Made by a program: the position numbers and the translations under genes
Shown here: in pieces, positions 11,972-15,070 of the stretch
Layout: each line of letters begins with the position of its first letter
How positions within the stretch are numbered: position 1 is the first letter of the stretch
Notes under the pieces: model-generated
Seen by the model: only the letters and a program-made list of their open reading frames with translations
What the model was told of the DNA's origin: nothing
Database searches by the model: none
DNA from: Sulfurovum indicum
GTDB taxonomy: Bacteria > Campylobacterota > Campylobacteria > Campylobacterales > Sulfurovaceae
Direction of reading: 5' to 3'
NCBI RefSeq assembly: GCF_014931715.1
Contig: NZ_CP063164.1
Location: 372,001-436,000, forward strand
Length of the DNA stretch: 64,000 bases

Positions 11972-13774
11972 ATGGATATTAAAGACTATACGGTTGAAGA
12001 GCTTGAAGTACTGGCACAGAAGATAAGAGACCGCATACTTGCAACGGTAAGTAAAAATGGCGGACACTTGAGTTCAACAATGGGTGCAACTGATCTGATT
12101 GTAGCGATGCACAAGGTCTTTGATGTAAACAAAGACCCGTTTATTTTTGATGTCAGTCATCAGGCTTACGCACATAAACTTCTGACCGATCGATGGGAGA
12201 CTTTTGATACATTACGTCAGTTTGGAGGGATCAGCGGGTATACCAAACCCAAAGAGTCTTCATATGATTATTATGTAGCAGGGCACAGTTCCACTTCCAT
12301 TTCATTGGCAGTTGGAGCAGCCAAAGCGATCGCACTCAAAGGAGAGGAGCGCATTCCGGTAGCATTTATCGGTGATGGAAGTATGAGTGCAGGGATGGTC
12401 TATGAGGCACTTAATGAATTGGGGGATCGTAAGTATCCTGTGGTGATCATTCTTAATGACAATGAGATGAGTATTGCCAAACCGATCGGTGCAATATCCA
12501 AACTGCTGTCACAGACGATGGCTGGTTCTTTCTATCAGAAGTTCAAGGGAAAAGTGGAGAAGGTACTGGACCATTTTCCCGAAGGTGCGACCTATATGGC
12601 TAAGCGCTTTGAAGAGTCTTTTAAGCTGATCACTCCAGGTATTCTTTTTGAAGAGATGGGTATAGAATATATTGGTCCGGTGGACGGACATGATATCTCT
12701 TCACTGGTTGAAACGATGGAAGTAGCAAAGCAGTTTGGCAAGCCGGTAATCATACATGCCCAGACAACCAAAGGTAAAGGATATGAGATCGCAGAGGGAA
12801 CCAAAGAGCATTGGCATGGTGTTGGTGCATTTGATCCGGAAACCGGTAAAGCATATAAAAAAAGCAGTGCCAAATCTGCGACACAGATTTTTTCGGAAAC
12901 ACTGGTTTCTATGGCAGATGAAGATGAAAAGATCGTAGGAGTGACTGCTGCAATGCCAAGCGGTACGGGACTTAGTGCCGCCATGGAGAAGTATCCTGAA
13001 CGCTTTTGGGATGTTGCCATTGCCGAGCAGCATGCAGTAACCTCCATGGGACCATTGGCAAAAGAGGGATTTAAACCTTTCTGTGCCATCTATTCTACTT
13101 TTTTGCAAAGAGGGTATGACCAGGTGATCCATGATATTGCTTTGATGGACTTGGGTGTGGCATTTGCTCTGGATCGTGCAGGAATCGTAGGAGAAGACGG
13201 AGAGACGCATCAGGGAGTTTTTGATATCTCTTATCTGAGAGCTATCCCCAATATGACGCTTTTAGCACCGTATAATGAAACAACAATGAAACTGGCAATG
13301 GCGTTTGCCAAAGAGTATGATCATCCGTGTGCCTTCAGGTACCCAAGAGGATCCTTCCTCGCTGAGGATTGCCAGTGCCCTGCTTTTGAACTTGGTAAGT
13401 CTGTACTGCTTCAAGAAGGGGAGGAGATCCTTTTTATCGGGTATGGTAACGGTGTAGGAAGAGCAGAACAGACTGCGGCTTTATTGGAGAAAAAGGTGGC
13501 AATACTTGACCTTCGCTTTGTCAAGCCCTTGGATGAAACAATGCTTGAATCGTTGAGTAAACGTTATAAGCAATGGTATGTTTTCTCAGACTCCGCAAAG
13601 CGTGGAGGTGTAGGTTCTGCGATTCTGGAATTTCTGAACGGAAAAGGGATCAGTGATATATCGTTAACTTCATTTGAGTATGATGACGCTTTCATTACCC
13701 ATGGGAATACTAAGCTGGTAGAAGAGAGTCTTGGATTGTTGCCTGAACAACTGGCCGAACGGGTAAAAAATTAA
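11972..13774 (+). CDS. dxs: 1-deoxy-D-xylulose-5-phosphate synthase
   Basis: DXS condenses pyruvate and glyceraldehyde 3-phosphate in the first step of the MEP isoprenoid pathway and supplies precursors for thiamine and pyridoxal. The 600-residue protein has the TPP-binding motif starting GDGS at about residue 134 and ending ILNDNEMSI. A central pyrimidine domain contains VAIAEQHAVT with the catalytic Glu, and a C-terminal transketolase domain follows. AGAGAAAA precedes the ATG. It closes the hisC-small ORF-dxs run; a strong hairpin follows its stop. Confidence 0.95.
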   Translation: MDIKDYTVEELEVLAQKIRDRILATVSKNGGHLSSTMGATDLIVAMHKVFDVNKDPFIFDVSHQAYAHKLLTDRWETFDTLRQFGGISGYTKPKESSYDYYVAGHSSTSISLAVGAAKAIALKGEERIPVAFIGDGSMSAGMVYEALNELGDRKYPVVIILNDNEMSIAKPIGAISKLLSQTMAGSFYQKFKGKVEKVLDHFPEGATYMAKRFEESFKLITPGILFEEMGIEYIGPVDGHDISSLVETMEVAKQFGKPVIIHAQTTKGKGYEIAEGTKEHWHGVGAFDPETGKAYKKSSAKSATQIFSETLVSMADEDEKIVGVTAAMPSGTGLSAAMEKYPERFWDVAIAEQHAVTSMGPLAKEGFKPFCAIYSTFLQRGYDQVIHDIALMDLGVAFALDRAGIVGEDGETHQGVFDISYLRAIPNMTLLAPYNETTMKLAMAFAKEYDHPCAFRYPRGSFLAEDCQCPAFELGKSVLLQEGEEILFIGYGNGVGRAEQTAALLEKKVAILDLRFVKPLDETMLESLSKRYKQWYVFSDSAKRGGVGSAILEFLNGKGISDISLTSFEYDDAFITHGNTKLVEESLGLLPEQLAERVKN

Positions 13775-13800: not shown

Positions 13801-13819
13801 GGTGCATTTTTAATGCACC
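13801..13819 (+). terminator. Stem-loop after dxs
   Basis: GGTGCATT and AATGCACC form a perfect 8-bp stem with a TTT loop, 26 bp after the dxs stop. There is no long T run, so termination efficiency is uncertain. It stands at the head of a cluster of inverted repeats before metK. Confidence 0.5.
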
Positions 13820-13820
13820 G

Positions 13821-13892
13821 GTTCAAGTGTTGAACTTAATAAAGTGATAGTTTATCTTTTTATTAAGTTCAGTGACAGTGGACGAACTTAAT
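13821..13892 (+). promoter_or_regulatory. Nested inverted repeats before metK
   Basis: GTTCAA/TTGAAC (13821-13835) is a 6-bp inverted repeat. It runs directly into GAACTTAATAAA (13832-13843), which pairs perfectly with TTTATTAAGTTC (13859-13870). A third GAACTTAAT occurs at 13884-13892, just before the metK ribosome-binding site. The 12-bp stem has a 15-base loop. The three copies of the same box suggest either an operator or two mutually exclusive RNA folds. It does not resemble the SAM-I to SAM-IV or SAH riboswitch cores that I know. Confidence 0.55.
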
Positions 13893-13909
13893 ATTTAAAA
13901 GGATTAAAA

Positions 13910-15070
13910 ATGGCTAACGAATACATTTTTACCAGTGAGTCAGTAACCGAAGGGCATCCTGACAAGATGGCAGACCAGATCTCAGATGCGATCCTGGACT
14001 ACATCATTAAAGAGGACCGCAATGCCAGAGTGGCATGTGAAACGTTACTGAGCAATGGTTTTTGTGTTATTGCAGGAGAATTAAAGACAACAGCATATGC
14101 GCCAATGCAGGAAATTGCACGTGAAGTGGTAAGAGATATCGGTTATACCGATGCATCTTACGGGTTTGACTATCGCTCAGCCGGTGTATTGAACGGAATT
14201 GGAGAACAGTCGCCGGATATCAATCAGGGAGTTGACCAGGCAGATGGTGAGATTGGTGCAGGTGATCAGGGACTGATGTTCGGATATGCCTGTAAAGAGA
14301 CACCTGAACTGATGCCTCTTCCTATCTCATTGGCACACAAGATCACAGCCAAGTTGGCTGAAGTAAGAAAAAACGGAACTGTTCCTTTTCTCCGTCCCGA
14401 CGGAAAAGCACAGGTCTCAGTAAAATATGTTGATGGGAAACCGGTCGGTGTTGATACGGTCGTTGTCTCTACCCAGCATCATGACAATGTCTCGCTGGCA
14501 CAGGTGCAAAAGGCAGTACGCCAAGAGGTTATTACCCCTGTACTTGAAGCATATGATATGCTTAGTGATGAGATCACCTACCATATTAATCCGACAGGCC
14601 GTTTTGTTATCGGTGGTCCTCAGGGTGATGCCGGTTTGACAGGAAGAAAGATTATAGTTGACACCTATGGGGGGTCATGTCCGCATGGTGGAGGTGCTTT
14701 CTCAGGAAAGGATCCAACAAAAGTAGACCGCTCTGCAGCCTATGCAGCACGCCACGTGGCTAAAAATCTTGTGGCTGCAGGTGCCTGTGAAAAAGCGACA
14801 CTGCAGATCGCTTATGCAATCGGTGTAGCTGAGCCGGTCTCTATTTATGTCGATACCCATGGTACTTCCAATATAGAGGAAGAAAAGATTATTGCATGTG
14901 TCAAAGAGTTATTCGACCTGACACCAAAAGGGATCATGGATTCTCTCGATCTGTTACGTCCGATCTATCGAAAAACAGCGGCCTATGGACACTTTGGTAG
15001 AGAAGAAGAGGATTTCAGCTGGGAAAAATTGGATAGGGTAGATGAGATTAGAACCTATTTAGGGATATAA
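13910..15070 (+). CDS. metK: S-adenosylmethionine synthetase
   Basis: MetK forms S-adenosylmethionine from ATP and methionine. The 386-residue protein has the conserved [18 protein letters not shown] start, the [12 protein letters not shown] hexapeptide region near residue 118, and the C-terminal [19 protein letters not shown] loop. AAAGGA is placed eight bases before the ATG. The gene is monocistronic by position: inverted repeats lie upstream and a separate promoter lies before the ferredoxin gene downstream. Confidence 0.97.

Follow-up and report, generated by a model that had tools for sequence, protein, structure and literature searches.

A candidate two-state leader RNA upstream of metK in Sulfurovum and a similar design before an RNA helicase gene

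Introduction

Short structured RNAs located directly upstream of metK, with alternative pairing near the gene start, are known from the SAM-I, SAM-III/SMK box, SAM-VI and SAM/SAH riboswitches. Genes for RNA decay can also carry regulatory leaders, as do pnp and rne of Escherichia coli, which are both autoregulated. In other phyla, metK is often a riboswitch target (PMC4239095), and the same account does not mention Epsilonproteobacteria as regards methionine/SAM regulation. Only a TPP riboswitch was found in the 5' UTRs of Campylobacter jejuni (PMC3847290). Our literature searches found nothing that joins metK with Sulfurovum, or metK with the leader of a DEAD-box helicase gene, and one paper that names both Sulfurovum and a riboswitch contains no mention of metK.

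Here, we describe a leader between dxs and metK in Sulfurovum. It shares its position and its alternative pairing with the SAM riboswitches named above, but differs from them in being built of one long hairpin and an overlapping mini-hairpin, a design common to a helicase gene. The latter gene encodes a CshA-like, degradosome-type helicase, so that the leader can be likened, by description and not by sequence, to the hairpin leaders of the RNA-decay enzyme genes pnp and rne, although metK as a co-target would be unusual. The original prediction for this locus, made from the sequence alone, had proposed nested inverted repeats with two alternative folds, acting either as a new leader regulator or as a two-site operator for a repressor.

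Results

Anatomy of the metK leader

The window, i.e., the whole 64-kb stretch analysed (G000:C1:372001-436000), belongs to a genome of 2.21 Mb, referred to as G000. The features around the leader are as follows, in window coordinates.

11972-13774, plus strand: dxs; P1 starts 57 nt past its stop codon here
13802-13820, plus strand: upstream hairpin GGTGCATTtttAATGCACC, lacking a T-run and lying outside the conserved element
13832-13849, plus strand: 5' arm of P1, GAACTTAATAAAGTGATA, pairing with 13853-13870; consensus of relatives GRAYTTRA...
13853-13870, plus strand: 3' arm of P1, TATCTTTTTATTAAGTTC; the base, AAGTTC, does not vary across the Sulfurovum alignment
13867-13871, plus strand: shared switch strand GTTCA, whose partner is the P1 5' arm or TGGAC (P2); a C-to-U change in L179 and L206 is compensated on both
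13872-13878, plus strand: P2 loop GTGACAG, near-invariant in metK leaders and not in helicase leaders
13879-13883, plus strand: 3' arm of P2, TGGAC; TGRRC in relatives
13884-13886, plus strand: RAA directly 3' of P2, conserved in the alignment
13884-13892, plus strand: third box GAACTTAAT, an optional longer partner of the switch strand; present as GAACTTA in 9 of 66 distinct relatives
13897-13903, plus strand: ribosome-binding site of metK, AAAAGGA, before the ATG at 13910
13910-15070, plus strand: metK, S-adenosylmethionine synthetase (TIGR01034, 604 bits against a cut-off of 309)

A second metK-like gene, about 40% identical, is found at G000:C1:1008592-1009761 and also in many relatives.

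Inspection of the sequence confirmed every inverted repeat of the original prediction at its position. The palindrome GTTCAA-gtg-TTGAAC is located at about 13821-13835, the first 12-bp arm (GAACTTAATAAA) at 13832-13843, and the complementary middle arm (TTTATTAAGTTC) at 13859-13870. Exact matches to GAACTTAATA occur in the window only at the three repeat places of the leader. The leader region also folds more stably than dinucleotide shuffles (z = -2.8). The conserved element spans 13832-13886 and comprises a hairpin of 17-18 bp, P1 (13832-13870), and an alternative small hairpin, P2, which forms when the 3' base of P1, GTTC(A) at 13867-13871, pairs with TGGAC at 13879-13883.

Comparison with relatives redrew the boundaries of the proposed element. 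Among relatives, neither the upstream stem nor the 6-bp palindrome nor the third box shows general conservation. The stem had been called terminator-like; it is present, albeit without a T-run. The palindrome exists in the window, but outside the conserved block, and the third box had to be given up as a general part. The middle arm had been thought to pair with either of two boxes: its pairing with the first arm could be extended into P1 and shows compensatory change, whereas its general second partner is TGGAC rather than the third box.

Distribution of the element

Absence of conservation in close relatives would have refuted the original prediction, but almost every congeneric genome has a block of some 55 nt ahead of metK. 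Of 78 Sulfurovum genomes, about 70 have a single copy each of its near-invariant tail, AAGTTCAGTGACAGTGRAC, located upstream of metK, and so do two genomes of the sister genus; these counts include related sequences. The core GTTCAGTGACAGTGRRC has one exact place in most of the 78 Sulfurovum genomes and carries one mismatch in a few. An exact scan for this core across the genomes of about 85,000 species gave 58 matches, 55 of them in records assigned to Sulfurovum, Epsilonproteobacteria or Campylobacterales; the remaining three look like chance. The core was not found in any contig in a scan of viral contigs.

The covariance search proposed earlier placed the element upstream of metK across Sulfurovum and in the sister genus g22. 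Model R1 found nothing outside the genus among 399 order-level and 298 phylum-level genomes. With the covariance model R2, to which two divergent members had been added, the metK elements of Sulfurovum and of two g22 genomes all scored at least 49.8 bits, and the next match reached 41.7 bits. Related genera were covered only through metK upstream regions and this covariance search. A genus-wide pattern search for similar tails yielded no more matches in total than the reversed control; hence, only orthologous clusters count.

Most genomes without the element had no metK found on the contigs examined. Two genomes are true exceptions: G011, and G018, in which a different gene precedes metK. At G087:C45:11496-12653, the match to metK is split into several pieces, with one TGA and a break in the reading frame, probably an assembly error. 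In genus g18, one metK upstream region (L269, genome G237) lacks the conserved tail but has, some 46 nt ahead of metK, a hairpin resembling P1 and, after it, CAAGTTC...GAACTTG.

Genomic context

In most genomes, dxs lies upstream of the element, and P1 starts 5-92 nt past the dxs stop codon. The distance is only 5, 7 and 14 nt in L051, L067 and L090, respectively, where metK is therefore probably co-transcribed with dxs. The element remains with metK in genomes that lack dxs (L106, L125, L206) or have it at a distance of 2 kb (L095, L119).

Between the core and the start codon there are mostly 10-36 nt, but about one genome in three has 77-175 nt there, with an additional hairpin-rich insertion. 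The ribosome-binding site of metK is left uncovered by both folds. Together with these long distances, this makes simple occlusion of the ribosome-binding site no general explanation. In about 20 genomes (L098, L050, L065 and others), an extra stretch lies between the element and metK, often CTGAGCC..GGCGAAGC.TTTAGTGAGATGAATTGA together with a hairpin; the start of metK in these genomes often reads MNEYIF. The leader of a long-leader relative with this stretch had no Rfam match. We also considered an upstream open reading frame within the hairpin. Some genomes do have an open frame there, but the hairpin lengths are spread over all three modulo-3 classes, and a coding role was rejected.

Pairing and covariation in P1 and P2

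The arms of P1, GRAYTT... on the 5' side and ...AAGTTC on the 3' side, pair over 17-18 bp. On alignment A1 (53 sequences), 94.8% of the cells are paired, and 10 of the 17 pairs show double changes. The covariation score was 0.460 as opposed to 0.201 in shuffles, none of 500 shuffles being as good on pairing or covariation, and the best slid control reached 59.5% pairing. Ungapped counting on 64 sequences gave a similar figure (94.4%). The leader thus has what is expected of a riboswitch-like cis-regulatory RNA, namely a structure that is conserved ahead of a gene and shows compensatory changes.

P2 forms between GTTCA and TGRRC across a seven-base loop and is paired in 98.9% of the genus alignment. 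Since the strand is nearly invariant, little covariation is possible inside the genus, and in metK leaders it is confined to two sequences and to G-U changes. In L206 (genus g22), P2 reads GTTTA-GTGACAG-TAAAC, and in L179 (genome G057) GTTT-AGTGAC-AAAC. In both, the C-to-U change of the shared strand goes together with G-to-A at its P1 partner and with A at its P2 partner, so that C-G becomes U-A in P2 and G-C becomes A-U in P1; for L179, the P2 change depends on moving a 3-nt gap by eye, which the aligner had placed differently. Double compensation in these two divergent members supports a strand exchange between P1 and P2.

P1 is the predicted more stable state in most metK leaders, with forced-P2 states lying about 2-3.5 kcal/mol higher (medians of predicted energies). 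The case for mutually exclusive structures is built on sequence evidence, namely the shared strand, the compensation in two sequences and the similar predicted energies. From this, we consider it likely that P1 and P2 exchange.

The same design at other loci

Weak matches of the covariance model led to a gene for a 460-aa DEAD-box helicase downstream of uppP. The best NCBIfam match of the protein is the degradosome helicase CshA, below the cut-off of that model. The arrangement GRATTTA...hairpin...AAGTTCA-N-GRRC was present in all the helicase leaders examined (L313-L361; 52 distinct sequences; L343 at G000:C1:889367 in the window's genome) except in G011. Of the 364 cells for the seven basal pairs of P1, 363 are paired. 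P2 is 7-9 bp long in 51 of the 52 distinct leaders, with variable loops of mostly 3-7 nt. The predicted energies of P1 and P2 differ by a median of 0.85 kcal/mol and lie within 3 kcal/mol of each other in 94%. The helicase leader had no Rfam match. As G011 is without both the metK and the helicase element, the joint absence is suggestive of a shared factor, albeit in one genome only.

Some genomes have a third site, between nfo and a gene for a secretory-lipase-like lipoprotein or a FadL-type gene, which partly overlaps dispersed repeats. There, a hairpin is combined with GTTCA...TGRAC (G000:C1:198315-198380, L184; also L182, L244, L247, L293, L296 and L312). A descriptor made of P1, P2 and a ribosome-binding site with start codon, applied to 1.26 Mb (57%) of the window's genome, recovered exactly three loci, metK, helicase and nfo-lipoprotein, and none in the reversed control. 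No other SAM-cycle gene carries the design within this 57%. Weak model matches at other loci were mostly dispersed palindromic repeats and were set aside; the nfo-lipoprotein locus nevertheless fits the P1/P2 descriptor.

Discussion

The region is very probably a functional cis-regulatory RNA. The predicted leader RNA upstream of metK, in which the middle arm takes part in either of two alternative folds, is supported at the level of sequence. As an overall explanation, we favor a cis-acting, bistable metK leader RNA, usually intercistronic after dxs, in which a trans-acting factor would read the exchange; on balance, this is the more plausible account of the alignments and folds.

The closest competitor is a new class of SAM (or SAH/methionine) riboswitch, in which P2 and its invariant loop, joined to a shortened P1, would form the ligand pocket for feedback on metK. 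The strict association with metK, the single copy per genome and the near-invariant tail beside a covarying stem are as expected for such an RNA, and the near-invariant metK loop GUGACAG keeps this reading alive. The class would have to be new. No known SAM riboswitch core had been seen in the original prediction, and Rfam 15 agreed: nothing in the window exceeded the gathering score, and no SAM/SAH family was among the matches of the region up to E = 10. However, the same P1/P2 design precedes the RNA-helicase gene with variable P2 loops and no obvious need for SAM feedback, which makes a SAM-specific riboswitch less likely. Moreover, the core is on the small side for an aptamer, conserved junctions, internal loops or pseudoknots were not seen, and the other SAM-cycle genes in the scanned part of the genome lack the design. 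We regard a SAM riboswitch as unlikely. An RNA thermometer or cold-shock switch, whereby temperature would shift the balance of P1 and P2 and so the expression of metK and the helicase together, is less probable still. The two states are close in predicted energy, and DEAD-box helicases act in cold adaptation (PMC5874925, in the part available to us), but the ribosome-binding site is occluded in neither state, and temperature alone leaves the invariant metK loop unexplained.

The hairpin could also be an ordinary one, a dxs terminator or a dispersed palindromic repeat that precedes metK by chance. Half of the P1 3' arms do contain a run of at least 6 T, but about a third have at most 3 consecutive T, and all 64 sequences have only one T in the 8 nt past the stem. 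The run of U that follows the GC-rich stem of an intrinsic terminator is lacking, and no terminator was found in the region. The dispersed palindromes CTGAACTTGATTCAG...CTGAATCAAGTTCAG in these genomes resemble P1, both in the stem base GAACTTGA/TCAAGTTCAG and in a right flank like ATGACAATGGAC, and the element may descend from one of them. These repeats are scattered, whereas each genome has a single strong copy of the metK element, whose tail is invariant and whose location is orthologous; the element stays with metK rather than with dxs. We consider an ordinary hairpin highly improbable. As an observation on the repeats themselves, the palindromes GTCATNCTGAACTTGATTCAGGATC...GATCCTGAATCAAGTTCAGGATGAC at L279-L283 and L289 have some right flanks that resemble the metK tail, a possible evolutionary source. 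Least probable of all is the two-site operator, with GTTCAgTGaCAgTGAAC as a near-palindrome bound by a repressor. This near-palindrome of 17 bp has symmetric mismatches, yet the fixed half-site spacing of a dimeric-repressor operator was not found: most metK leaders do share one spacing, but that of L179 is 3 nt shorter and that of the helicase leaders varies. Most half-site changes preserve pairing as U-A or U-G, an operator leaves the neighbouring covarying hairpin unexplained, and a P1 that can begin 5-14 nt past the dxs stop codon leaves little room for a promoter.

In the bistable leader that we prefer, the strand AAGUUCA would pair either upstream, completing the long hairpin P1, or downstream with UGRAC, giving a small P2 that adjoins a shortened P1. 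The exchange may set the efficiency of metK translation, or the cutting and protection of metK mRNA. It would be read by a shared trans-acting factor, and the invariant metK loop GUGACAG could add gene-specific recognition. The most likely candidate for this factor would be the RNA-decay machinery, helicase plus RNase, because the design is shared with the gene for a degradosome-type helicase. In Helicobacter pylori, the sole DEAD-box helicase, RhpA, is linked with RNase J (PMC7492731, PMC5874925, in their available portions). A readout by the decay machinery, suggested by the helicase link, is a speculative proposal that we hold with some doubt. Slightly less tentative is the broader proposal that one shared sensor, protein or metabolite, acts through this leader class to co-regulate S-adenosylmethionine synthetase and a degradosome-type RNA helicase in Sulfurovum. 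If true, such a leader would couple methyl-donor supply to RNA turnover.

The metK leader probably represents an RNA switch not described before, and not one of the known SAM riboswitches. A genus-wide RNA switch at metK would fill a gap in the methionine/SAM regulation of Epsilonproteobacteria, and its recurrence before the gene of a degradosome-type helicase suggests a small regulon at the RNA level. With RNAs of 60 nt, these leaders may also illustrate gene control by two alternative helices that leave the ribosome-binding site uncovered.
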